IMG/VR virus record: IMGVR_UViG_3300028883_001011
Location: 1 to 26,747 of that record
Origin: a virus
Length of the DNA: 26,747 nt
Direction: 5' to 3' (one strand)
Shown here in pieces: positions 1-26,747 of the stretch. Under the pieces are notes generated by a model. The model was not told where the DNA came from. It ran no database searches and worked only from the letters and a program-made list of their open reading frames with translations. How positions within the stretch are numbered: the first letter of the stretch is position 1; each line of letters opens with the position of its first letter. The translations under genes and the position numbers were made by a program.

Positions 1-219
1 ATGGTCGGGCTCTTGGGAGCGACATCGAACGTACTGGGCAGCGCCGGCAAGCTGGCCGGCGGGCTCGGTGGTCTCACCGGCGGCGGGGGCGAGGGCCCCA
101 GCTCGGCGACGTCGAGTGTCTCGTTTCAATCGGGCTCGATGGATCGCGGCATCGATACGCAGACGCTTATGATCGGCCTGGTCATCATCGCGGGCCTGTG
201 GTTGTTGACAAGGCGGTGA
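1..219 (+). CDS. small single-pass membrane protein, virion-like
   Basis: The product has 72 residues. The first half is rich in Gly, Ala and Ser with a Gly run near residues 20-31, a polar Ser/Thr stretch follows, and a single hydrophobic segment (about residues 56-69) ends in a positive tail (TRR). This C-terminal anchor with Arg-Arg outside the membrane recurs in the next gene. The window begins exactly at the ATG, so no ribosome site can be inspected and a longer reading frame upstream cannot be excluded. The stop lies three bases before the next ATG, so the two genes are probably co-translated. I do not recognise the family. Glycine-rich small anchored proteins are common in the internal membranes of tailless phages such as PM2-like and PRD1-like viruses, which is my inference from context only. 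Confidence 0.6.
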   Translation: MVGLLGATSNVLGSAGKLAGGLGGLTGGGGEGPSSATSSVSFQSGSMDRGIDTQTLMIGLVIIAGLWLLTRR

Positions 220-222
220 CAC

Positions 223-570
223 ATGGGCAGTAGATCCTATTCGCTGGCGCAAGATCAACGCGTGCAGCTCGATTCGACCGAGGGCGGTCAGTTCATCGGG
301 CCGGCCGCGACGGTCCATCAAAACCAGGCCTACGATATCGGCACGTACAAGTATCAATCGGGCCTGACGGGTGCGGACGTGCTGGGCCTGTTGGAGAACC
401 AGGCCGACGTCACCAAGCGCTCGGCCGATGCGTCGAATCGGTTCGCCGAGCTGGCGTTGACGTCTCTCTCGGCGTCGCAACAAGGCCAGTCGATCGACTG
501 GAAACAGTATATCCCGATCGGGATCGTCGGCGTGATCGCGATCGCGGTCCTGCGCAGGGGGCGGCGATGA
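223..570 (+). CDS. membrane-anchored virion-like protein with C-terminal TM
   Basis: The product has 115 residues: a polar domain of about 90 residues, a hydrophobic segment (about 95-110, IPIGIVGVIAIAVL) and a basic end RRGRR. The topology repeats that of the preceding 72-residue protein, so both probably sit in the same membrane with the basic C-terminus on the cytoplasmic or virion-interior side. The middle (about residues 50-85) is charged and probably helical. The stop codon overlaps the ATG of the next, very small gene (ATGA), which indicates translational coupling. The family is not recognised. I see no signal peptide and no catalytic motif. A structural role in a membrane-containing virion is inference. 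Confidence 0.65.
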   Translation: MGSRSYSLAQDQRVQLDSTEGGQFIGPAATVHQNQAYDIGTYKYQSGLTGADVLGLLENQADVTKRSADASNRFAELALTSLSASQQGQSIDWKQYIPIGIVGVIAIAVLRRGRR

Positions 571-653
571 TTACCAAAGAGGCGCTGTATCAACTGATCT
601 TCTGGGTCGGGATCTACCACACGATCAAATGGGCGGCTAGGAAACTGGCATGA
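567..653 (+). CDS. 28-residue membrane miniprotein
   Basis: This short frame reads MITKEALYQLIFWVGIYHTI and ends WAARKLA. Its ATG overlaps the TGA of the upstream gene (ATGA at 567-570), and its own TGA overlaps the ATG of the downstream gene (ATGA at 650-653). Two back-to-back stop-start overlaps are hard to explain by chance and argue that it is translated. The centre (residues 7-20) is hydrophobic and aromatic, flanked by charged ends, so it should span or line a membrane once. It fits the class of tiny virion membrane proteins in tailless phages, but no homology can be claimed at this length. Confidence 0.6.
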   Translation: MITKEALYQLIFWVGIYHTIKWAARKLA

Positions 654-1279
654 AGACACCACGCTATTTTACGCAGACGCTGGCGGCCGGGGCCTACTGG
701 ACGATCGGGGCCTTTGGGCGGTTCGTCAATGTGCTGACGGTCTCGGCGTCCACGATTCAGGTCGCGATCGACGATGACCCGTTACAACAGGTGACGCCGG
801 GGATGCAGCTCGAAGTCCCTGAGTCTTATCAGCGGATCGTCTTCTACAATGCGGGGGCGGTCGCGTCGACGGTGGTCGTCTATATCGCGGATCGGCCGGT
901 GACGATGACCAGCGACAGCCTGGTCGCCGCGATGGTCGCGAGCCTGGCGAACATCGAGACGGACATCGATGATTACCAGGCGGCCACGACCACGCCCACG
1001 GTCCTGAACAAAACCAACGTGGCGGACGGGTCGGTGCCGGCGGCGGCGACGCTGCTGTTTGCGGCCAACGGGGACCGCAAGCCGGTGGAGATCGTCGCGG
1101 CCGAAGACAACGGCGGCTATGTCTACATCGGCCTGACCAACGCGGTCACGCCGACGGTGGCGGTCGCGGCGGTACTGCTACCGGGCGGGGCCTGGTGGTC
1201 GCAAAACTGGAAGGGGGGCGTCTGGGCCTGTGGATCGGATGCGCTGCAGAACGTCTATGGGAACGAGCAGGAGGCCTAA
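650..1279 (+). CDS. beta-rich virion or adhesin-associated protein
   Basis: The product has 209 residues. The N-terminal 85 residues follow a pattern I know from many phage virion proteins: an opening like TQTLAAGAYWTI, a middle stretch describing a bounded value (PGMQLEVPESYQRIVFYNAG), and a closing strand like VVVYIADRPV. A short charged helix-like linker (about 88-112) leads into a second beta-rich domain (about 113-205) ending in WW-SQNWKGGVWA. There is no signal peptide or membrane segment. It lies immediately upstream of the spike gene and is coupled to both neighbours (ATGA at its start, adjacent stop and start at its end), so a base or stalk for the spike is a reasonable inference. 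No enzyme motif is seen. Confidence 0.6.
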   Translation: MKTPRYFTQTLAAGAYWTIGAFGRFVNVLTVSASTIQVAIDDDPLQQVTPGMQLEVPESYQRIVFYNAGAVASTVVVYIADRPVTMTSDSLVAAMVASLANIETDIDDYQAATTTPTVLNKTNVADGSVPAAATLLFAANGDRKPVEIVAAEDNGGYVYIGLTNAVTPTVAVAAVLLPGGAWWSQNWKGGVWACGSDALQNVYGNEQEA

Positions 1280-2986
1280 ATGCCGGTAGGAAATCCAGCG
1301 GTCGCAGATCTGACGGCAACCACGGCCTGGTCGCGGGCGCTGCTGCTGAAGACCAACGCCACGGGCGGCCTGGCATCGCTCGGTTTGCCGGTCTACAATA
1401 CCGACGACTATGCGGATGACGTCGATGCGCTGGTCACAGCGGCCGGGGCGGGGCCCTATGTGGTCAACGTCAACTCCGATTCCGTCGTCTCGGCCAACAC
1501 CACGACCGACGACGACATTGTCTGGACCTTTCAACCGGGCTGCACGGTGACGGTCAATACGGGCGTCACCCTGACGATTGAATCGCCCGAGCATATCCAA
1601 GCGGGCCAGCGGCATTCGTGTTTTGCCCTGGCCGGGACCGGGGCGGTGGCGTTCACCAAAGCGGGCACGGTGTATCCGCAATGGTGGGGGGCGGTTGCGG
1701 ATGGAGCGACCGACGACGCGGCGGCCATTCAAGCGGCCATCGACGCGGTGACGGCCGGATCGGTCGTCGACTTCCCGGCCGGAACCTACGGCCTGGCTTC
1801 GGCCCTGGCGCCCAAGAGTTTCGTCACGATGCGGGGTCAAGGTCTCGCAACGGTGTTGTATGCCCTGGCGGCCAACGCGGACGCGATTTTTCAGACGGCC
1901 GTACAGTATGAGCGGGGCGTTATTGAGGGCTTCGCGTTCCGCTCGGCTGACAAGGACGTGTCGGTTTTGGAGAACACGGCCACGACTACGTATATCGCCT
2001 ACCTGCGGATGCGTGACTGTGAGGTTTACTCGGAATTCGACGTTGCCATTGCGGGCCTGTTCGGTTCGTGTTTGTTCGAGAATATCCGCTTTGGCTATCT
2101 GGGCACGCCGGGAACCAACTGGCAACCGGTCAAGCTGGTCGGCCCATCGTCGGGTAAAAATATCTTCTCGAACACGTTCGTGCATTGCAATTTCTATCAC
2201 GGGACATCGACCGTTGACGGCATGGTCCAACTCGAAACCGGCTGGGCCCAGACGTTCATCGGCTGCGTGTTCGAGCAATCGAATTGCCGGGCCCTGTACG
2301 CCAAGGGCGTGCAGTCGATTGAACTGTACGAATGCAACTTTGAGCATCTGTTGTGCAACGGTCACACGTACAACGCGGCCGTCTATCTCACCATAGATTC
2401 GGCCCTGGCGCAAGGATCGTCGGCGGTCTTTCGATCCTGCAAATTCCAGAACAACGCGGCCACGGTGTGGGACGCGGTCTGCTGTACCTATAATGCGACG
2501 TTCGTGTCTTTCGAGTCGTGCAGCGGTTCACTCGGCTCGAAGTATTTTTCGATGTGGCCGGGTCCGCTGTACGATGAGGCCAATCCGGGGCTCTTTCGCT
2601 TGACCAACAATCGGTGCGTCAGCTATGGCGGTACGGCTCCCAGCGTGTACCAGCAATATCCCATCACGGTCGGCGGCATCAAGCACACAGGCGAGACGGT
2701 GACACCGATGGAGACGTTACCGGTCAACGATGCCACGCCGAGTATCAATAACGGGACGTTCTTCACGATGAGCGGCGGCACCGGGGCGACGGTGACGACG
2801 TTAGACGACGGTGTAGACGGACAGCATGTGATTATCTATGTCATCGGTTCGCAGTACACGATTGATTTCAGCGGTGGCGGAAACCTCAAAGGCAACGGCG
2901 GTGTTGACGCGGTCGGGCCTGGTCGACTGGACGCGATCTACGACGGGACCAACAACCTCTGGCATTGCCAATGGGAAGGGTATTGA
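1280..2986 (+). CDS. spike protein with pectate-lyase-type beta-helix
   Basis: The product has 568 residues. Residues about 134-172 contain the entry motif of the pectate_lyase_3 superfamily: QWWGAVADGATDDAAAIQAA, then FPAGTYGL. This is followed by about 280 residues of short repeating strands with regularly spaced Asn, Cys and aromatic residues, as expected of a right-handed beta-helix. Phage spikes with this fold bind or cut surface polysaccharide. Residues 1-130 form a virion-attachment part, and the last 110 residues probably form a trimerisation or tip domain (GTFFTMSGGTGATVTTLDDG). An AGGAGG site just before the ATG supports the start. The presence of an active depolymerase site cannot be judged from the sequence alone. 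It may serve as the host-recognition spike of the block-1 virus. Confidence 0.8.
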   Translation: MPVGNPAVADLTATTAWSRALLLKTNATGGLASLGLPVYNTDDYADDVDALVTAAGAGPYVVNVNSDSVVSANTTTDDDIVWTFQPGCTVTVNTGVTLTIESPEHIQAGQRHSCFALAGTGAVAFTKAGTVYPQWWGAVADGATDDAAAIQAAIDAVTAGSVVDFPAGTYGLASALAPKSFVTMRGQGLATVLYALAANADAIFQTAVQYERGVIEGFAFRSADKDVSVLENTATTTYIAYLRMRDCEVYSEFDVAIAGLFGSCLFENIRFGYLGTPGTNWQPVKLVGPSSGKNIFSNTFVHCNFYHGTSTVDGMVQLETGWAQTFIGCVFEQSNCRALYAKGVQSIELYECNFEHLLCNGHTYNAAVYLTIDSALAQGSSAVFRSCKFQNNAATVWDAVCCTYNATFVSFESCSGSLGSKYFSMWPGPLYDEANPGLFRLTNNRCVSYGGTAPSVYQQYPITVGGIKHTGETVTPMETLPVNDATPSINNGTFFTMSGGTGATVTTLDDGVDGQHVIIYVIGSQYTIDFSGGGNLKGNGGVDAVGPGRLDAIYDGTNNLWHCQWEGY

Positions 2987-2988
2987 CG

Positions 2989-3522
2989 ATGGCTGAGCTA
3001 GTGACCTATGACGATCGCTACGTCAGTCCGGGCGACATGGTAGACCTGGCCTTTCGGATCGTGGGGCGCAATGAGGTCATGATCGCGCTGGCGGTCCACG
3101 AGATGAAACAGAAGATCGCCCACGATGAGCGATTCGACTACCAATCGGGCAAGCGGGAGAATCGGACGGACCTGGAAACCGGCACGGTCTACGAATACCT
3201 GGTCGTCCGCGTGATCGTGCGCAAGACACCGAAGCAAGAGCGCGACCAGGTCCAGCGGGCGAGTATCCTCGTCCCCCTGGCAGTAATCGTCGGCTGTATC
3301 TCAGCGGTGGCGATCGCCTACGCTGGCGTCCTGGCATATGACAGTTATAGCGTGCAACGTATCGCGCTGAGCGATGAGTCGGACGCGACCAAGGTGGCGG
3401 CGCTGGGGGCGCTCGAAACACCCCTGGCGGCCAGGTTCGCCAAGGGGGATTGGTTCCCCTGGATGGTCGGGGGCGGACTGCTGGCGGGAATGCTTTTGGT
3501 GGGTAGACGCATTAGGAGCTGA
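2989..3522 (+). CDS. two-pass membrane protein with soluble N-domain
   Basis: The product has 177 residues from the ATG two bases after the spike stop; the GAAGGG upstream supports this start over one 24 bases earlier. Residues 1-85 are soluble and charged (many Glu, Arg, Lys and Asp), followed by a long hydrophobic segment (about 90-117), an outer loop with Asp/Glu residues, and a second hydrophobic segment (about 152-170) ending in GRRIRS. The two-pass layout with both ends on one side suggests a structural membrane protein. The family is not recognised. It lies between the spike and the basic peptide in what looks like a single transcript. Confidence 0.65.
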   Translation: MAELVTYDDRYVSPGDMVDLAFRIVGRNEVMIALAVHEMKQKIAHDERFDYQSGKRENRTDLETGTVYEYLVVRVIVRKTPKQERDQVQRASILVPLAVIVGCISAVAIAYAGVLAYDSYSVQRIALSDESDATKVAALGALETPLAARFAKGDWFPWMVGGGLLAGMLLVGRRIRS

Positions 3523-3523
3523 C

Positions 3524-3655
3524 ATGGCACGCAAGACGTACAAGAAAAAGTCATCGGCGCAGAAGGCCAAGCGCAAAGGCAGCTCGGTCTACAAAGTCAA
3601 GAGCGGCTGGCGGATCTCGTCGGGGCGCAAGCGGAAACGTCGCCGGCGGCGATAA
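3524..3655 (+). CDS. 43-residue Lys/Arg-rich peptide, possible DNA condenser
   Basis: A clear AGGAG lies before the ATG. Of 43 residues, 21 are Lys or Arg, with short Ser and Gly spacers, one Trp, and a run of nine basic residues at the C-terminus (RKRKRRRRR). There are no acidic residues. Such composition is typical of peptides that neutralise packaged DNA, like adenovirus core peptides and similar basic proteins in membrane-containing phages. A ribosomal or nucleoid protein would be the alternative, but the position between two membrane-protein genes of a virus-like block favours a virion role. That function is inferred from composition and context only. Confidence 0.65.
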   Translation: MARKTYKKKSSAQKAKRKGSSVYKVKSGWRISSGRKRKRRRRR

Positions 3656-3738
3656 CCAGGGGGGCTGTGGGTCGGATCGACGGGAGATCGGCGATCCTGG
3701 GGCGTCTGAGGGATCGCAAACATGGAGGTAACGAGCCA

Positions 3739-4131
3739 ATGAGACGTTTTATGATGATCGCGGCCGTCTGCTGCTGTTTGGCTGGCGGCTGCACGGAAAG
3801 CCAGCTCGAACAAGGCGACGCGATCGTGCGCGACGTCAACAACATCGGCCAGGCGATCGACCAGGTCGCCAGCGGGCCGGCAGGGGCCCTGATCCCCCCG
3901 CAGGTGCGCCAGATCATGCAGCTCCTGGGGATCGGAGCGGCGGCGGCCTACGGGATCTGGCAGAAGATCCGGGCGGATCTGGCGAAGCAGGACACGCGCG
4001 GCGTGATCGCGTCGGTCGATACGCTGCTGGCCGGGCCGCAAGTCGCCAACACCAAGAAGGCCAAAGAGATCCTGGCGAACGACCAGGGCGAAGCCCTGGC
4101 CGCGCGAGTGAAAAGGCTCAAGGTGAGCTGA
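3739..4131 (+). CDS. small lipoprotein
   Basis: The product has 130 residues from the ATG that follows GGAGGT at a proper spacing; this start was chosen over one 72 bases upstream because it places the signal peptide at the N-terminus. Residues 1-17 are a lipoprotein signal (MRRF then a hydrophobic, Cys-rich core) and LAGGC supplies the acylated Cys at 18. The mature part has two helical regions, one with a hydrophobic stretch (about 55-70, LLGIGAAAAYGIW). Its stop overlaps the next ATG by one base. A lipoprotein next to a small membrane protein recalls phage spanin pairs, but the order is not the usual one and I cannot confirm it. Confidence 0.6.
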   Translation: MRRFMMIAAVCCCLAGGCTESQLEQGDAIVRDVNNIGQAIDQVASGPAGALIPPQVRQIMQLLGIGAAAAYGIWQKIRADLAKQDTRGVIASVDTLLAGPQVANTKKAKEILANDQGEALAARVKRLKVS

Positions 4132-4334
4132 TGGCGTTGACCGACGACCAGCAACGCGAGGTGCGCGAGATCGCCGACATCGTGGCCGATCGCATCATCA
4201 AGCACCATACCGAGAGCTGTCCGCACGGCCAGGCCTTTCAGATCTTCAAAGCCCGGCTACTTGGCGCGTGCATTATGGCGGCAGTCTTGTCAGGCGGGAC
4301 CGTCTTCGGCCTGGCGAAACTGTTCGGCGGGTGA
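4131..4334 (+). CDS. small C-terminal TM protein (holin-like size)
   Basis: The product has 67 residues. The N-terminal half is charged (LTDDQQREVREIADIVAD, then IIKHHTESCPHGQ), and the C-terminal third is one membrane segment (about 46-62). The ATG overlaps the preceding stop (TGATG). The arrangement of LT-DQQ-V, IA, VAD, then H-x-x-C and a terminal membrane segment is closely matched by the 95-residue product at 21216-21503 on the other strand, so the two are probably distant relatives. Size and topology would suit a holin or a virion membrane protein. I cannot choose between these from the sequence. Confidence 0.6.
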   Translation: MALTDDQQREVREIADIVADRIIKHHTESCPHGQAFQIFKARLLGACIMAAVLSGGTVFGLAKLFGG

Positions 4335-4360
4335 GTATAAGCCCATGGACCCACTACGGT

Positions 4361-4366
4361 TATAAT
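4361..4366 (+). promoter_or_regulatory. possible -10 box (TATAAT)
   Basis: A perfect TATAAT lies 16 bases before the ATG at 4383, in the only gap between genes in this part of the block. No good -35 box is seen at the expected distance and there is no extended -10 TG, so this is a weak candidate. Confidence 0.25.
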
Positions 4367-4382
4367 CCGAGGCAGTCTATCA

Positions 4383-4697
4383 ATGGGACTATTCGGCCCT
4401 TTTAGCAGCCCCAAGATGATTAAGCTGGCGCTCACGACCGCCGGCGTCGAAAAGGCCAGGCTCGACCATGATCGCGATCGCGATGAGCTGGTCCTGTCGG
4501 TCCTGGTAGCCGGCGAGATCAAGCATGTCCGGATACCGATCGGCATCACCTACACGATCGATGAGCTGGCCGCCTGGCTGGCCGGCGAAGATCCCTTCAG
4601 CGCAGAGCTCGATACGATCGACCAGGCCGGACAAAAGGTGGGCACCCAACTGTCCGGGCCCGCCGGCGATCGTCCGGAAACACCCCCCAACCTCTAG
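4383..4697 (+). CDS. hypothetical protein, 104 aa
   Basis: I do not recognise this protein. It begins MGLFGPFSSPK, which could be a short amphipathic segment, continues as a compact mixed alpha/beta domain (about 12-80), with strands around ELVLSVLVAGEIKHVRIPIG and a helix around TIDELAAWLAG, and ends in a Pro/Gly-rich tail. There is no signal peptide or membrane segment. A weak GAGG lies 11 bases upstream of the ATG. It is the last gene before the hairpin-rich non-coding stretch, and codon use matches its upstream neighbours. Confidence 0.5.
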   Translation: MGLFGPFSSPKMIKLALTTAGVEKARLDHDRDRDELVLSVLVAGEIKHVRIPIGITYTIDELAAWLAGEDPFSAELDTIDQAGQKVGTQLSGPAGDRPETPPNL

Positions 4698-4751
4698 CAG
4701 CTCCCCCGGAGAAAATCCCCACCTGGTCATTTTTTTTGCCCCCGTAGCGAC

Positions 4752-4780
4752 TTGACGCGGGGAGGATCTGCGTGTATGCT
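4752..4780 (+). promoter_or_regulatory. sigma70-type promoter before hairpin cluster
   Basis: TTGACG (4752-4757) and TATGCT (4775-4780) are separated by exactly 17 bases. Transcription would start near 4786, precisely where the hairpin-rich stretch begins. A short T8 run (4730-4737) lies just upstream and may end the preceding transcript. Confidence 0.5.
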
Positions 4781-4785
4781 GTGCT

Positions 4786-4990
4786 GGGCGGGAGGACGGA
4801 AGCCCTTAACCCCTCCCGGAGTTAAGGGCTCCGTCCCGTCAGCCGCCTTTTTACAGGCGGCGGCTGACTCCGTAAAGGAAAAACCCTCCGGGTTTTGGCT
4901 TTGACAAAGGCCAAAGGCGAGTTAGACTTTCCTTACGGGTCGGGGAGCGGTCCCCGGCGAAACCACCAAGCGGCTTCGCCGCGCGGTTCA
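4786..4990 (+). ncRNA. candidate structured RNA, at least five hairpins
   Basis: This 4698-5079 gap is non-coding. Within it: (1) a 15-bp stem with one bulged A, 4795-4810 with 4821-4835; (2) a perfect 10-bp stem, 4838-4847 with 4859-4868; (3) an outer stem 4870-4881 with 4928-4938 (11 bp, one bulge) enclosing AACCC/GGGTT and GGCTTT/AAAGGCC hairpins as a multibranch; (4) a perfect CGGGGA/TCCCCG stem, 4941-4956; (5) GCGGC-TTC-GCCGC, 4970-4982. The loop of stem 1 (CTCCCG, 4813-4818) is complementary to CGGGAG at 4789-4794, so a pseudoknot is possible. A promoter sits directly upstream. It may be a free RNA, a leader of the gene at 5080, or a replication origin; the sequence does not decide. Confidence 0.5.
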
Positions 4991-5079
4991 GGGAGATGCG
5001 ATGGACGCGGGCCGATCGACAGCTCATCACGCCAGCCAACGCCTGGCCCGATCTGCCGGCACGTCGCGGGGAGAGATCC

Positions 5080-5319
5080 ATGATCGAATTGTTGGAGCTG
5101 CTCAAGCTCGCATCGGACGCCAAGACGCAACAGGAAGTTTCCACCCAGCTCGAAGCGCACGCCTTACTGATCCGCACGATGCACAAAGATCTGTCCATGG
5201 TCATCGGCGGCCAGATCGGCATCGGCGTTTGCCTAATAGTGCTGGGCGGACTGGCCATCTACCTCGGTATCATCGTGTCGCGCATGGACAAGCGTATCAA
5301 GGCCCTGGAGGCCAAATAA
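5080..5319 (+). CDS. small membrane protein with flanking helices
   Basis: The product has 79 residues from the ATG preceded by GGGGAGAG; an in-frame ATG 84 bases upstream lies in structured DNA without a ribosome site and was not chosen. The N-terminal helix is leucine-rich (MIELLELLKLASDAKTQQEV), then comes a single membrane segment (about 46-66), and a short charged C-terminal helix ends KRIKALEAK. Small membrane proteins of this shape include holins and phage accessory proteins, but no family can be named. It is the last + strand gene before the integrase and faces it tail to tail. Confidence 0.5.
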   Translation: MIELLELLKLASDAKTQQEVSTQLEAHALLIRTMHKDLSMVIGGQIGIGVCLIVLGGLAIYLGIIVSRMDKRIKALEAK

Positions 5320-5391: not shown

Positions 5392-6399
5392 CTAAGACAT
5401 ATAAGCTTTTTTAGCCACATAAGACGTGGCTTCGGCGACCAGCGACAACTGAGTTTTTCGATCGTACTTACGCGTCGTCTCGACGCTTGAATGCCCGAGC
5501 AGATCCGCCGCACGACTTAAGCCGAACTTGTCTATCATGCTCGTGGCAAACGCGGCTCGTAGTTCATGAAAACGCCGCGCTTCACGAATGCCCGCACGTT
5601 CCTGCAAGCGCCGAAACTTGCGGGGAAAATTGCCTGTCGGATCACGCGTCTCTGCAAAGCCCAACGTGCCGTCCGCCTGAAACGCCAGCAGTCGCTCTAC
5701 ATAAAACGATTCCAAACAGACATACCCATCCGCGTGGCCAAGCTCAGCGATCCGGTCCGTGATGATCTGACGCAACGGGACAACCGTGCCATCAAAACAC
5801 ATCGTCTCCGGAATCCCCAGGTACCGAAGCTTCTTGCCTTTGACACCCCAGCCAATCGTCCGTTTGGCCGGCCGATGATAGCCGATCACAATGTGCGGCG
5901 TTTCGGCGTCGAGCTTGACGTCTCGGGCTTGTACGCCCAGGAGCATCTCGCCGCGACGAGCGCCCATCAGGCCCAGGCAGATCCGAATCTGCCAGAACGG
6001 GCTGGCGACTTTCATCAACTGGGCCAACTCTGCCGTCGTAAACGTCTGGCGGGGCGGCTCCTCCTCGATCGGCAGCGGCCGAATCGTTCCGAACGGATTG
6101 GTTCGGATGTAGCCGTGCCGACTGAGCCAGGCCCAGAAGGGCTTGAAGTTGTTCAGATACCCGTTGACGCTGACCTGCGATCGCCCCGCCGCCAATAACG
6201 TCCTATAGTCTTCAGCCATCGCCGTCGTGACCTCGTTGACTGACAGGTCATATTTGACCTCGCCGTCCGGGTCCGGCGCTGGCGTACCGAAGTTCTCACA
6301 GAACATCCGACAGGCACGACGCTTGATGTCCACGCTGGCAGGCCGCAAAGGCTGCCGGGACAGGTACAACTCAAAATAGCTTGCTACCGACTCCATCAT
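5392..6399 (-). CDS. tyrosine recombinase (phage-type integrase)
   Basis: The product has 335 residues, usual for the family. Residues about 1-105 form the SAM-like core-binding domain (ending SRHGYIRTNPF). The catalytic domain shows Arg148 in the GARRGE box, a Lys near 189-190, the HELR box (His278, Arg281), LGHSSVETT with His303, and Tyr312 in RKYDR, so all catalytic residues are present. It lacks the extra patch between boxes that marks integron integrases. GGGG lies seven bases before the start. It probably integrates and excises the block-1 element, whose genes point towards it. An inverted repeat lies just past its 3' end and another upstream of its start. Confidence 0.9.
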   Translation of the reverse strand: MMESVASYFELYLSRQPLRPASVDIKRRACRMFCENFGTPAPDPDGEVKYDLSVNEVTTAMAEDYRTLLAAGRSQVSVNGYLNNFKPFWAWLSRHGYIRTNPFGTIRPLPIEEEPPRQTFTTAELAQLMKVASPFWQIRICLGLMGARRGEMLLGVQARDVKLDAETPHIVIGYHRPAKRTIGWGVKGKKLRYLGIPETMCFDGTVVPLRQIITDRIAELGHADGYVCLESFYVERLLAFQADGTLGFAETRDPTGNFPRKFRRLQERAGIREARRFHELRAAFATSMIDKFGLSRAADLLGHSSVETTRKYDRKTQLSLVAEATSYVAKKAYMS

Positions 6400-6437
6400 A
6401 GAAATCCCCTTTCCGACCCCTTCTGTCGGGGCCTTTC

Positions 6438-6465
6438 AGAGTCAGCCACTGTGCAAGCCGACTCT
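6438..6465. promoter_or_regulatory. inverted repeat upstream of integrase
   Basis: AGAGTCAGC (6438-6446) and GCCGACTCT (6457-6465) pair at eight of nine positions around a ten-base centre, about 40-65 bases before the integrase start. A CCCC/GGGG hairpin (6417-6431) lies between it and the gene. It could be an operator or an Xis/Int arm site. Confidence 0.3.
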
Positions 6466-7064
6466 AAGGTAGCCCGATAGAGCCGCCGGTCGCAAGCATG
6501 TTTACCATGGATTAAGTTGCCAAAGAGCACCGCAGGCCGCGAAAGGACCGCCTGTGACAGCGCAGGTGCCCCAAAACCGCAGGACTGGGCCGAATAACCG
6601 CCCTTTCCCCCTGTCACCGCCCTGCCGGGACGGCGTTATGAAGATCCTGAGGGGCCAGGCTACGCGCCATGGCCCCCAGGCAAATCAACAAGACGGCCCC
6701 GGGATTTTAAGAGAGGGAGAGGAAGCGAGACTACCCGGGGCCGAAAGGTGCAATGCGGAAAAGAGGGGGCATCCATTGGGGCGAGCTGGCATGGGCTGAG
6801 GACTTCCGACCGGGCCGACCGCCCTGCCGCATAAGTATCCTTTTCTGACCTCGAAACCCGCACGTCCATTTTGCCGCCTCTCGACCGCTGCAGCGTGATT
6901 TCTCTTGGCTTATGGCCACCGCTTGGCCATAGTGAGCCTGTCCTCGATGAGGACCAGGAGGCTGCGTGCCAGTGACGCAACCACGATTGGAATATACAGA
7001 TGCGATTAGTACGCGCCAACAAGAAAAGCGAAGGGGTGCTCAGGAATATGCAGGTCTGCTCATG
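6466..7064. other. non-coding stretch with one long inverted repeat
   Basis: No convincing gene is seen in about 600 bases. The only clear structure is a perfect 10-bp inverted repeat, CGGCCCCGGG (6694-6703) with CCCGGGGCCG (6734-6743), around a purine-rich 30-base loop. A CCGCATAAG motif at 6827-6835 matches the motif in the palindrome near 10510. The stretch may hold the boundary between the block-1 element and the accessory island. Confidence 0.35.
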
Positions 7065-7093: not shown

Positions 7094-7117
7094 AATCTTA
7101 TGGAAAAAGAACCAGGC

Positions 7118-7684
7118 ATGAAAAAAATCGATACGCACGTCCCCGTTGACGTCTGGAAACGCTACGAGCAATGGGTAAAGGGCCGTGGCAACATCCCGTC
7201 GCGACAGCTTCACACGCGACTCTTTGAACTGTTCTTGGCCTTGCCCGAACACCTTCGCCTTCAGGTTCTCTACGGCAAGCTTGAAGACATGAACCAGATC
7301 GTCGCCCCCTTGAACCGCCAACGTGTCCCGGTCCCGGAAGATGCATTGCAGTGGTGTGGCATGCCGCTGACGCCGGCGTGGACCGCCGCCGAGCGAGAGC
7401 ATGCCATCCGCGCGATGGCACAGGATCTTCTTCGACGCGGCATACCGGTCGACCAACTCCACGCAGCCATCGAGGCACCCGCCAAACGTGGACAAGCATC
7501 GGCTCCCGGCGCGCCGGACTTGTCTCCGGAAGAACTGGTGTCGACTTGGCCCGAGGACACTAAGCAGTGTGCGATGGCCGTGCTCGCGCGCAGTATTCCC
7601 GACAAAGAACGATCGAAGCTTCATCGTGTTATTGACGTCGAGGCCGCCGCGATTGCCTCCGATCAGGCGGATACTGTTTCTTGA
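7118..7684 (+). CDS. hypothetical protein, possible ribbon-helix-helix N-terminus
   Basis: The product has 188 residues from this ATG (194 from the ATG at 7100). Residues 1-45 begin with a strand (MKKIDTHVPVDVWKRYEQWV) followed by two helices, a layout compatible with a ribbon-helix-helix DNA-binding fold, though no diagnostic motif is certain. The remainder (about 70-185) is helical, with a Pro/Ala-rich break near 130-145. There is no membrane segment. Its 3' end overlaps by 56 bases the convergent small gene at 7629-7808, so at most one of the two may be expressed at a time. The function is unknown; an accessory regulator is a guess. Confidence 0.5.
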   Translation: MKKIDTHVPVDVWKRYEQWVKGRGNIPSRQLHTRLFELFLALPEHLRLQVLYGKLEDMNQIVAPLNRQRVPVPEDALQWCGMPLTPAWTAAEREHAIRAMAQDLLRRGIPVDQLHAAIEAPAKRGQASAPGAPDLSPEELVSTWPEDTKQCAMAVLARSIPDKERSKLHRVIDVEAAAIASDQADTVS

Positions 7685-8437: not shown

Positions 8438-8707
8438 ATGACGTACCGCATTGAGATCGACCGCCGGGCCCTCAAGGTCTTGGCTTCCCTGCCCAAGAAG
8501 ATCCAACGCCAGATCGTCGCACGGATCGATTCCCTCGCCGAAGAACCGTTCGCGCCCGACGCCCAGCAAATCAAAGGCCAGGAAGACATCTGGCGTATCC
8601 GCTCAGGCAGCTACCGCATCGCCTACACCGTCCGTCAGAAAGTCCTCTGCATCCTGGTCCTACGGGTCGGGGACCGCAAAGACTTCTACCGGCATTTCAA
8701 TCGGTAG
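8438..8707 (+). CDS. RelE/ParE-family toxin
   Basis: The product has 89 residues, usual for RelE toxins. The N-terminus (MTYRIEIDRRALKVLASLPK) and the helical hairpin with KKIQRQIVARIDSLAEEP are characteristic, followed by the central sheet IWRIRSGSYRIAYTVRQKVLCILVLRVGDRKDFYR, where the Arg and the final Asp/Tyr residues correspond to the mRNA-cleavage surface of RelE relatives. It lies six bases after the antitoxin stop. In such pairs the toxin cleaves mRNA on the ribosome once the unstable antitoxin is degraded; they stabilise mobile elements and can act in phage defence. A ParE-like gyrase toxin is the alternative, but the conserved charged residues favour RelE. Confidence 0.88.
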   Translation: MTYRIEIDRRALKVLASLPKKIQRQIVARIDSLAEEPFAPDAQQIKGQEDIWRIRSGSYRIAYTVRQKVLCILVLRVGDRKDFYRHFNR

Positions 8708-8734
8708 CACCGCTTCACACCGGGATTGCCCGCA

Positions 8735-8780
8735 CAAAAAGCAAAACCCCGCCAGAGGCCTTTCAGCGTGTCTGACGGGG
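8735..8780 (-). terminator. terminator of - strand defence genes
   Basis: Read on the - strand, CCCCGTCAGA and TCTGGCGGGG (8780-8747) form an imperfect stem followed by TTTTGCTTTTT (8746-8736). It lies between the toxin and the - strand AbiGi-like gene. It should end - strand transcripts; on the + strand it lacks a T-run. Confidence 0.6.
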
Positions 8781-8919
8781 AGTAGATCAATCCCACTGCG
8801 GTGTGATTAGCTGAGTTACACAAATTGCGGCGTTGCGTGCGGGACGTGCGCTTGCTGCGTTCCATTTGTACCCACACACGGTGAAACAAATCAATCCTCC
8901 TTTTGAGAAACGGCTCCCG
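8781..8919. other. tail of second cassette, possible decayed attC
   Basis: On the - strand TGTGTAAC (8822-8815) is complementary to GTTACACA at the left edge of the AbiGi-like cassette (9622-9615), as a 5' half-site of its attC should be. No clear hairpin or closing GTT site follows, so the attC would be damaged, or the match is chance. An AGGAGG and a TTG-started short frame lie here too but look unconvincing. Confidence 0.3.
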
Positions 8920-9606
8920 CTAAAAATCAGCGCACTCGGTCAACGTAACCGTACTCGGCATGTCTTTCGAAAAGAACGCTCGTATCCTTTCCTCGCCTAA
9001 TGCCTTCCGCCGTACAGTCTCATCTGGGAACACGATTATTCTGACATCGCGGGCCTGGAACGGCATTCTGAAGACTCCCTTTCCGGCAGCACTCGTGAAG
9101 TGGGGATTGTCGTCGCTCTCATCGTAGATGAGTCGCCACTCAAGTTCTTCGAAAAAGTCGTCGCCATTGCCATCCGACATTCGCTTCACATGTGCCATTA
9201 TCCATTTTGCCCACCTCCTAATGTCCTCTTCACGTTCGGAGCGATCGTGGATCTTGCGAATGGAGTCCTCTAGCAGACGACCATTCCGATCCGATTCATA
9301 TGGTATGTAGATGACCGGACGACCACCTTTCTTCATGATGAAGTCACGTGCAAAGCCGATGCCAAGCTTGCCGTACCGTCGAGCGTGTGTTTCCGCTTGA
9401 CTTAATCTTATTTCGGTGAAACATAATCTCACCAGATGCTTGATCTTCCAGCGACGAATGACAGCTTCCGTTGTCCGCTTCGCGAAGAGTCCGTTCTCGC
9501 AGTCATCTGCGAGGCGCTCGACATATCGCTGCGTGTTGCTCCCTGCGGAAGAGTTCTCAATGTCTCTTCCGGTCCAATGAACGAGGATATTAGAATGGAT
9601 GGGCAT
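8920..9606 (-). CDS. AbiGi-like abortive-infection protein
   Basis: The product has 228 residues. Key segments resemble the AbiGi antitoxin family of phage resistance: an opening SNILVHWTG, the central LCFTEIRLSQAETHARRYGK and LGIGFARDFI (about 61-90), GGRPVIYIPYES (about 94-105), and FFEELEWRLIYD (about 151-162). In this family the pattern is C-F-x-[DE]-I-x-L-S with a His and YG-x-GI, followed by P-V-x-Y and a late EWR. Family assignment is from remembered motifs. In the known two-gene system AbiGi pairs with AbiGii, a nucleotidyltransferase toxin; no such gene is in the window. The ATG lies 15 bases after the attC crossover point, typical of cassette genes. GC is lower than in the flanking phage genes. 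Confidence 0.6.
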   Translation of the reverse strand: MPIHSNILVHWTGRDIENSSAGSNTQRYVERLADDCENGLFAKRTTEAVIRRWKIKHLVRLCFTEIRLSQAETHARRYGKLGIGFARDFIMKKGGRPVIYIPYESDRNGRLLEDSIRKIHDRSEREEDIRRWAKWIMAHVKRMSDGNGDDFFEELEWRLIYDESDDNPHFTSAAGKGVFRMPFQARDVRIIVFPDETVRRKALGEERIRAFFSKDMPSTVTLTECADF

Positions 9607-9615
9607 CGTTCTTCT

Positions 9616-9681
9616 GTGTAACGTTTGAGCTCAGGCCGCGGCCCGTCAGGGCCGTCGCGCCTGCAGTGAATGGTTAGCAGC
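9616..9681 (-). other. integron attC site, 66 bp
   Basis: Read on the - strand the site opens GCTGCTAACCATTC, has arms CAGGCGCGACGGCCC and GGGCCGCGGCCTG around a TGAC loop with unpaired bases in one arm, and closes CTCAAACGTTACAC. This is the attC plan: AAC, an imperfect hairpin with extrahelical bases, then GTT. The half-site GCTGCTAAC (9681-9673) is the exact reverse complement of GTTAGCAGC at the other end of the cassette (10375-10367), as demanded by excision and closure of a cassette. The crossover is between 9622 and 9621. The stop codon of the upstream gene lies inside the half-site, also usual in cassettes. Confidence 0.8.
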
Positions 9682-10374
9682 GTTCAGTAGAACGGAATTT
9701 CGGATCTGACCTAGTTGACACCACAAACACAGCCTCAGCTCCAGAACCGGGATCACTTTCGCTGACCCTCCTGTACGCATCTTGCATCCAAGAAATGCAC
9801 GCTTCTGGCGTGCACGAGTTCTTGGTGGAGGCAATAAATGAGTCGATGTTTACTAATCCGACTGCCTTCTCGAAATGCTCGCTTCCCGAGCCGGCATGAA
9901 GAATCTTAACCCCATCGGTGGATCGATGCAGGCGAGTCTGGTTTTCAACCGGGCTAAACAGAAATGTATTTGTGAAGTATGTGTCAGCGTCTTGGTCAAA
10001 GAACGAGGCGATGCCCTGATTGACCATGAACGAGGTCAATGTGCTCAGGCTGGAGCGATCATGAATACGTAGGAAACTTTCCATGTGCTTTCGAATTGTC
10101 CAGAGCCCTTCATCGATACTGGCACTCCGCTCAATCGTTTGGATGTAGTAATGGTCTTGTGTATGGCCAGCGATGCCCAAGGCTAGGCTTCTGCTCGAAT
10201 TCAGAGTGATTTTATTGTAGTCGTGAACTATGGAAGTGCCTCCAGCGTGAACGGCTATGTCAGGCGTTGTTGTAACCGGGCACTCCGCCATTGCCTTTCG
10301 ATCTGCTGACAGAACAGACATGTCTCTATGCAAAATATTGAGTATGAAGGTCACATGTACCCCTAAGCTGCTAA
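9622..10374 (-). mobile_element. integron gene cassette (Ntn hydrolase)
   Basis: The cassette is delimited by G-TTAGCAGC at 10375/10374 and G-TTACACA at 9622/9621, and holds one gene and one attC, all on the - strand. It is 753 bp long, a usual cassette size. There is no integron integrase, no attI-associated promoter structure and no run of further clear attC sites, so it is a lone cassette, either captured from an integron elsewhere or left behind by one. Confidence 0.75.
9674..10354 (-). CDS. stand-alone proteasome/HslV-like Ntn hydrolase
   Basis: The product has 226 residues from GTG at 10354, chosen because AGGGG lies five bases upstream and because it puts Thr directly after the initiator Met. 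The N-terminus reads MTFILNILHRDMSVLSADRK: once Met is removed, Thr is residue 1 and the Asp of SAD is residue 17, as in proteasome beta subunits and HslV. A Lys in NKITL (about 48) and GIAG (60-63) match the Lys33 region and the GxAG strand, with an insertion of about 14 residues. The helical middle and remaining strands are compatible with the fold. No unfoldase partner is nearby. It is carried on a gene cassette; the target is unknown. Confidence 0.6.
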   Translation of the reverse strand: MTFILNILHRDMSVLSADRKAMAECPVTTTPDIAVHAGGTSIVHDYNKITLNSSRSLALGIAGHTQDHYYIQTIERSASIDEGLWTIRKHMESFLRIHDRSSLSTLTSFMVNQGIASFFDQDADTYFTNTFLFSPVENQTRLHRSTDGVKILHAGSGSEHFEKAVGLVNIDSFIASTKNSCTPEACISWMQDAYRRVSESDPGSGAEAVFVVSTRSDPKFRSTERC

Positions 10375-10380
10375 CAATGA

Positions 10381-10530
10381 TTAGATGGACCCGCATAAGA
10401 TGCAAGAATGCTCGTTTCGGTCCGTATAAGCCGCCTTTGGATTTCCTGCCAAGAACGCCATAAGATTTGCTCCTTCAAGAGCTTGCTGTCGGTCCACTCC
10501 CTTATCCCGGGATCTTATGCGGATCCGCAT
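10381..10530 (-). CDS. 49-aa ORF with strong ribosome site
   Basis: The frame starts at an ATG inside the 28-bp palindrome, with GGAGG five bases upstream, and stops 26 bases before the Ntn hydrolase start. The product begins MRIRIRSRDKGVDRQQALEG, continues ANLMAFLAGNPKAAYT and ends CILCGSI, so it contains a CxxC pair. A second ATG (10461) also has a GGAG upstream and would give a 26-aa form. No family is recognised. It lies just outside the cassette boundary and may be the first gene of the same transcript, or a leader peptide. Confidence 0.4.
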   Translation of the reverse strand: MRIRIRSRDKGVDRQQALEGANLMAFLAGNPKAAYTDRNEHSCILCGSI

Positions 10531-10537
10531 AAGATCC
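10510..10537. repeat. 28-bp perfect palindrome with CCGCATAAGAT arms
   Basis: The palindrome consists of CCGCATAAGAT and its complement ATCTTATGCGG meeting at GGATCC. Further copies of CCGCATAAGA lie at 10391-10400 and, as CCGCATAAG, at 6827-6835. It covers the ribosome site and start of the 49-aa ORF. Confidence 0.65.
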
Positions 10538-10746: not shown

Positions 10747-11166
10747 CTACGGTTCGCTGGCGAGGGTCATTGTGACGTCGTAGCTTTCGCCATCGGCCAG
10801 GGCGACGCCGCTACCGGCGTTGAGGGGCTCGGTGGCGATCAGTTTGCCGCTATCGTCGGCGGTGGTGGCTAGGAACTTGGTCTTAGCTAGGCTCCACGCC
10901 CCACCGGAGGCGGTGAACGTCACCTCGGCTGTTGTCAGTGCCCGGCCGTTGGTTCCGGCGGCGGCACTGACCATGCCAATCGAATCGGCGGCAACATACT
11001 GACGGGCATAACCGTTGCCGCTCAATTCCGTCAGATCGCCCAGTGCCGCATTGGCTGGGATATCATCCTCGGCCTCCGTGCAGAAACCGATGTAGTAGTG
11101 GTTGGGCTTGGTCTGCTGGCCGTTGGCCAACTCGAATAGGAACTGAATACCCTGGGTTCGGATCAT
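10747..11166 (-). CDS. small tail-tip or fibre protein
   Basis: The product has 139 residues and begins MIRTQGIQFLFELANGQ. Its plan is that of a common phage virion protein: NHYYIGFCTEA, then LTELSGNGYARQYV, a mid segment ending AEVTFTASGGAWSLAKTKFL, and a closing strand. The same plan is found in the product at 15310-15708. AGGAAAG lies before the ATG. It is the last gene of the phage operon, ten bases after the tail-hub gene, and is followed by the terminator. The exact role is not known; tail-tip decoration or fibre attachment is likely from position. Confidence 0.6.
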   Translation of the reverse strand: MIRTQGIQFLFELANGQQTKPNHYYIGFCTEAEDDIPANAALGDLTELSGNGYARQYVAADSIGMVSAAAGTNGRALTTAEVTFTASGGAWSLAKTKFLATTADDSGKLIATEPLNAGSGVALADGESYDVTMTLASEP

Positions 11167-26066: not shown

Positions 26067-26747
26067 TCAGATGCAGTCGGTGTCTTTCGCGTTGATCAGA
26101 AGCATGGAACATGCCAGAAGAAATGGGTTGGTATTTTCGTGTCGCTCCATGCGCTCGACACACAGCGGTAACCCGGCCTCTTCGATAATTTCCTCATAAT
26201 CTCGCAGAGGGTCCCATACGATCACGCCTGCCGGGAACCCAACGGTCCGGGCCGTCTCGGCGATCAGTTCCTGCCACTTCCGCGTCATGGCTTCCCGTGA
26301 GCGACAGTAATCAAATACAGCAATCCTGGCTCCCGGCTTGGTTACCCTTACAACCTCCGAGAGGACCAGCTCTGGATCGGGAGCAACACACAGCACAAAG
26401 CTCTCAAGGGCAGCATCGAAACTGTCATTGCCGAAGGTCATGCTTGCTGCGTCCATCTCGCGTAGCTCAATCTCGTTGTGATCCAGCGCGTCTCGTTTCT
26501 CCTGGGCCATCGCCAGCATCTCCGGCGTGAAGTCGATTCCCGTCACGCGGGCATCCTCCGGATAATAGGCCAGATTTCTGCCAGTGCCCACCCCTACCTC
26601 GAGCACGTGCTGTGATGACTCTAGAGCCAATTCACCGATCAACTTGCGGCGGTCAAATTCCCAGTACTCTGCCATCACCTGTTCGTAGCGTGACGCCCCC
26701 ATTCCATAGACGTGCCTGATGGTAGAGGCGGTAATCTCGTGATTCAT
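26067..26747 (-). CDS. class I SAM-dependent methyltransferase
   Basis: The product has 226 residues. Motif I is VLEVGVGTGRN (about 48-58), the acidic loop DARVTGIDFTPEML follows, then EMDAASMTFGNDSFDAALES and LSEVVRVTKPGARIAVFDYC, the order of motifs I to III in UbiE/Methyltransf_11 proteins. The first 40 residues, with YGMGASRYEQVMAEYWEFDR, are like quinone or phospholipid methyltransferases. The window ends at its ATG, so the upstream region cannot be judged. The substrate is unknown. It lies at the position where a terminase is expected if the phage block continues, or marks host DNA beyond the prophage. Confidence 0.8.
   Translation of the reverse strand: MNHEITASTIRHVYGMGASRYEQVMAEYWEFDRRKLIGELALESSQHVLEVGVGTGRNLAYYPEDARVTGIDFTPEMLAMAQEKRDALDHNEIELREMDAASMTFGNDSFDAALESFVLCVAPDPELVLSEVVRVTKPGARIAVFDYCRSREAMTRKWQELIAETARTVGFPAGVIVWDPLRDYEEIIEEAGLPLCVERMERHENTNPFLLACSMLLINAKDTDCI

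Follow-up and report, generated by a model that had tools for sequence, protein, structure and literature searches.

The window, a metagenomic virus record of 26.7 kb analysed over its full length of 26,747 nt, carries a variable cargo locus of a phage at 8796–10746, with a tail-fibre gene on one side and a Phd/ParE toxin-antitoxin pair on the other. The G+C content of the locus is 51%, whereas the tail region has 61% (sd 1.5%) and the DNA on the opposite side 60%. Within the locus, two adjacent genes are encoded on the minus strand, in the orientation of the tail operon. The first is a gene of an unnamed family (9674–10354), coding for a protein of 226 amino acids and forming, with the attC site at its end, a very probable integron gene cassette of 753 bp (cassette 1; 9622–10374, minus strand). 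The second is an AbiGi-like gene (8920–9606) coding for a protein of 228 amino acids, which is probably the gene of a second cassette (cassette 2).

The DNA on both sides of the cargo is shared with a sister phage, L006. A backbone segment with a terminator (8733–8795, minus strand) is 92% identical in L006, and the Gp80-like phage fibre gene on the far side (10747–11166, minus strand) is conserved at 84–86% identity in L005 and L006, the fibre protein of L006 being 86% identical. The Phd antitoxin gene is 74% identical in DNA sequence, and the L006 counterpart of the gene at 7100–7684 has 66% protein identity. Between these same flanks, L006 carries a ClpP-like SDH protease instead. The second relative, L005, stops at the stop codon of the fibre gene. 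The same flanks with another cargo in L006, together with the G+C contrast, place the cassette inside a variable locus of the phage. The earlier note had described a cassette captured beside a prophage; the cassette actually lies within the cargo locus, between backbone segments common to L006. These edges also bear on an assembly chimera, in which a foreign integron fragment was fused to a phage contig. Such an artefact would suit a metagenomic virus record of 26.7 kb and the abrupt shift in G+C at the cargo edges. However, the cargo locus of L006 is bounded at the same two places, so that a chimera would require two joins at exactly these points, and this explanation is extremely unlikely. 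The product of the L006 protease gene (5615–6565) is a serine protease of the ClpP-like SDH type (PF01972, E 1e-17), and the ParE gene of L006 is present as a fragment only.

Cassette 1 extends between two G|TT cleavage points and has matching half-sites of 9 nt at its ends. Its 5' edge is the R' half-site G|TTAGCAGC (10367–10375, minus strand). At these positions the plus strand reads GCTGCTAAC and the minus strand GTTAGCAGC; the latter (10375–10367) is complementary at 9/9 nt to the R'' half-site GCTGCTAAC at 9681–9673, as expected of ends compatible with a circular cassette. On the minus strand the cassette is laid out as ...CTAATCATTG|TTAGCAGCTTAGGGGTACAT-GTG...(226 codons)...TGC-TAA-C..., followed by CATTCACTGCAGGC...GCCTGAGCTCAAAC and then GTTACACA. 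It contains one open reading frame in the orientation of the attC, preceded by a Shine-Dalgarno-like AGGGG (10360–10364). The GTG start lies 21 nt past the G of R', and the TAA stop codon (9676–9674) falls within the R'' half-site.

The attC reads, from 9681 to 9615 on the minus strand, GCTGCTAAC-CATTC-ACT(G)CAGGC-...-GCCTGAGC-TCAAAC-GTTACACA. It is composed of the R'' half-site (9673–9681), an L'' box ACT(G)CAGGC with an extrahelical G (9659–9667), an L' box GCCTGAGC (9629–9636) and an R' half-site GTTACACA (9615–9622), which would serve both as the end of this attC and as the putative start of cassette 2. The L'' and L' boxes pair at seven of eight positions, L'' containing the extra G, and the geometry is (5,6,3). 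When single-stranded DNA was folded, the complement of the coding strand gave the complete attC hairpin, AAC/GTT pairing included (-15.7 kcal/mol, z -2.3), whereas this pairing stayed open in the coding strand; such asymmetry is the behaviour expected of an attC. Thus, the R''-L''-L'-R' plan, the extrahelical base and the bottom-strand hairpin of an attC are all present. In Rfam, no family matched.

As the earlier note had proposed, the site was also examined with an attC covariance model. The model built here (R1) was trained on arrays from Pseudomonadales genomes, mostly beside intI, and on R388, with the window left out. It is based on 12 training sites only, with shortened centres, and its E-values are roughly calibrated. 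R1 gave a single match at E ≤ 10 in the 26.7-kb window, at 9679–9616 on the minus strand (23.6 bits, E 9.5e-4). Sites in known arrays scored about 15 to 43 bits, and the training site dfrB2 scored 59.5. As an outside control, three sites were found in Tetrasphaera phage TJE1 (25.4, 22.3 and 21.9 bits); the seven other control sources, E. coli K-12 and phage DNA, gave nothing above 11.1 bits. In a 3-Mb Alcanivoracaceae genome, only one site scored at least 23.6 bits among the 150 of 728 first-look candidates that were scored, and it lies ~700 bp away from a broken intI, an integron integrase gene in two pieces (L075, G001:C5:63466–64058). The score of the window site is comparable to those of the TJE1 sites and of sites in Pseudomonadales arrays. 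Anatomy, geometry, fold and covariance model all confirm the hairpin plan that had been claimed at 9616–9681, and the stop codon is located within the half-site, as had been stated.

The earlier note had further held that matching half-sites are hard to obtain by chance. The 9-nt complementarity is indeed exact, but among 200 dinucleotide shuffles of the window, matching half-sites of at least 9 nt with any 7/8 hairpin arose in 89. Paired half-sites and a loose hairpin thus prove little by themselves. The same signature with the hairpin geometry of real attC sites appeared in one of the 200 shuffles, and none had this geometry and, in addition, a purine following each GTT. Only in combination with attC geometry is the half-site match good evidence. 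These counts bear directly on the reading in which hairpin and half-site match are both coincidental and the gene is an ordinary phage moron. The frequency of the loose signature speaks for it; the stricter count of 0/200, the fact that the claimed site is the only R1 match in the window and the low scores in the seven control sources speak against it. It is also contradicted by a homologue of the gene in a chromosomal cassette chain, where the opening half-site, GTTAACAGC, is almost identical. Coincidence is accordingly a highly improbable explanation.

This homologue, full-length and 43% identical to the cassette 1 protein, was found in the Alcanivoracaceae genome (locus L009), as the last gene in a chain of cassettes with successively matching half-sites. 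The half-site pairs are at 6816/7284, 7361/8446, 8481/9265 and ~9301/9913, the first two having been found by a search requiring a hairpin and the others read by eye and less strictly; the homologue opens with GTTAACAGC at 9983. The position of the homologue in this chain indicates that the gene family is truly a cassette family. A TIR-domain gene (8481–9301) is the cassette two places ahead of the homologue in the same chain, which may be a defence-rich array. A truncated homologue is located on a Pseudomonas aeruginosa plasmid, ~3 kb from an attC match, and shorter remnants of the gene occur without attC in four further genomes. A 351-bp N-terminal remnant with near-identical flanks was observed in genomes of three species (L071, L072 and L073 in G068, G196 and G128), which suggests that a larger element has spread recently. 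No relatives of the cassette 1 protein or of the AbiGi-like protein were found in IMG/VR.

Searches of the cassette 1 protein against Pfam, NCBIfam, PADLOC and PHROGs returned nothing convincing. Its N-terminus (MTxIxNxxH...AADR...NKI...AGxT) weakly resembles HslV, of the proteasome/HslV-type Ntn hydrolases, with the catalytic residues Thr1, Asp17 and Lys33 of HslV in register. The probability of this alignment was 2–4%, near the top of the shuffled controls, and the protein had no Pfam match to PF00227. Structures predicted with AlphaFold for the cassette 1 protein and its L009 homologue had pLDDT values of 40 and 45, too poor for searching. The resemblance to HslV is a lead only. In one reading of the locus, phages of this group load the slot from fibre gene to toxin-antitoxin pair with host- or phage-defence genes from chromosomal integrons, and the product of cassette 1 is a proteasome-like protease that acts on its own and represents a new type of defence. 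The protease half of this reading draws on the ClpP-like protease that the sister phage has in the same slot; as a whole the reading is improbable.

The AbiGi-like protein matches PF10899 (E 9e-10) and AbiGi in PADLOC (3e-12), and proteins of this kind also match the phage family phrog_13416. The AbiG abortive infection system needs both AbiGi and AbiGii; AbiGi-like alone was found here, with no AbiGii candidate up to the Phd/ParE pair. No attC accompanies an AbiGi-like relative in another genome (L081), which speaks against cassette 2. The ATG of the AbiGi-like gene is 16 nt past the R' G of GTTACACA, within the usual range for cassette genes. Downstream of the gene, TGTGTAAC (8815–8822, minus strand) is the exact complement of GTTACACA and the putative R'' of cassette 2. 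This 8-mer has two copies only in the window, the half-site itself being one of them, against 0.21 expected, and in shuffles of the 124-nt tail 3' of the gene TGTGTAAC arose with a probability of 0.0013. Neither the covariance model nor the hairpin search detected an attC after the AbiGi-like gene; the phage backbone starts ~20 nt beyond TGTGTAAC, leaving nothing of an attC after R''. Because no attC follows, the case for cassette 2 is built on the 8-nt match and the typical start offset, on which basis this gene is a probable second cassette whose 3' attC is broken. The cassette had been called lone in the earlier note, and this description holds for the one intact attC in the window but not for the adjoining gene.

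The same evidence weighs on another origin, namely that a host integron integrase placed a single cassette directly into the cargo locus, in an attG-like G|TT site immediately upstream of a resident AbiGi-like phage gene. The upstream flank CTAATCATT|G and the downstream TTACACAG would suit a bare GTT target, just one attC is present in the window, and the match of AbiGi-like proteins to phrog_13416 is as expected of a phage gene. On the other hand, the AbiGi-like start is placed 16 nt past the half-site, as in cassette genes, and beyond its 3' end stands the exact complement of the half-site at which it begins, for which the chance is about 0.001. Insertion of a single cassette also predicts an uninterrupted target, CTAATCATTGTTACACAG. 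No empty-site relatives were found: the joined-flank 16-mer had ten viral matches, all in unrelated sequence and at unrelated places, with neither gene present. Single insertion is possible but rather doubtful, and a fragment of a two-cassette array would be, by a moderate degree of confidence, the probable origin of the cargo.

Taken together, the matching half-sites, the attC anatomy, the occurrence of the gene family in a chain of chromosomal cassettes, the conserved flanking phage genes and the foreign G+C make it very likely that 10374–9622 (minus strand) is a genuine integron cassette, consisting of one gene and its attC, inside a phage cargo locus. The carrier is a tailed phage or prophage with the cassette in its cargo (moron) locus. 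No intI is encoded in the window, the best match to TIGR02249 (cut-off 265) reaching 22.5 bits, in agreement with the earlier note. A tyrosine recombinase at 5392–6399 was considered as IntI and rejected, being of phage type (phrog_1, E 1e-27). Since the record, which may be a fragment, encodes no integron integrase, cassette 1 would have been formed and moved by such an integrase acting in trans in some host. A two-cassette piece of an integron array could then have lost its 3' attC where it was joined to the phage backbone, a step for which illegitimate recombination could serve. The cassette genes would be transcribed from the tail operon or from a local promoter. As attC 1 retains the parts needed by the integrase, cassette 1 could yet be excised or relocated in a host that carries an integron. 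The similarity to AbiGi and the TIR-domain neighbour of the homologue suggest that the cargo may act in defence or in competition of host or phage. A search for the host of the phage found none.

Integrons and CALINs have been reported in phages, with 21 phages among 10,705 genomes (Qi et al., 2023; PMC9892861). In that survey a CALIN was defined by at least two attC sites without an integrase. Three attC sites were reported in phage TJE1, and both of those tested recombine with attI1 (PMC9892861). As in phage-borne CALINs, the window has an attC-bounded cassette in a phage genome without intI, and its attC scores like those of TJE1. Unlike them, it has one intact attC, below the two-site minimum of the survey, and belongs to a metagenomic phage whose cargo locus varies between sister phages. 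The locus is thus neither a complete integron, with intI and attI beside the cassettes, nor a CALIN, having one attC and a putative second lacking everything past R''. An isolated cassette outside an integron also recalls the single cassettes reportedly inserted at attG sites in genomes (Loot et al., 2024, Nat Microbiol); here, in contrast, the target is a phage cargo locus, and the probable second cassette points to an array fragment.

The closest counterpart of the gene, the L009 cassette, shares a GTG start, a near-identical opening half-site and a stop near a degenerate end half-site. It differs in belonging to a chromosomal cassette chain, with the broken intI elsewhere in the genome, whereas cassette 1 has one neighbour and is carried by a phage. 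Similarly, the attC geometry (5,6,3) and extrahelical base are those of class 1 integron cassettes (R388 dfrB2 and orfA), and several chromosomal cassettes have the same geometry; in contrast to class 1 integrons, intI, attI and a resistance gene are lacking here. As phage-borne cassettes were reported in 2023, the locus is a real but rare instance of a known phenomenon. It adds a carefully bounded example and indicates that single-attC cases, which are skipped by surveys with a two-site minimum, can be supported through the half-site rule combined with attC geometry. Also, the cassette gene family is common to a chromosomal array, a plasmid and a phage, which makes cassette traffic through phages directly testable.

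A few further features of the window were observed. The 370 bp upstream of cassette 1 resemble neither an attC nor any known attI, which speaks against the cassette reading, and a search for a plasmid origin gave no match. Just upstream of the cassette is a perfect 28-bp palindrome, GGATCTTATGCGGATCCGCATAAGATCC (10510–10537), and an extra copy of CTTATGCGGRTCC occurs ~110 nt from it; the repeats in this region (10387–10537) may belong to an attachment site or form a small element related to a recombinase. Left of the phage integrase, the block at 1–5319 contains plus-strand genes for small proteins ending in membrane-like segments and for a tailspike-like protein. No DNA similarity to the related phages L005 and L006 was found for it, and it may come from another element. 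At the right end (26067–26747), a UbiE-like methyltransferase gene follows the portal region, no terminase gene having been noticed in the window; this end is possibly a prophage edge or host DNA.
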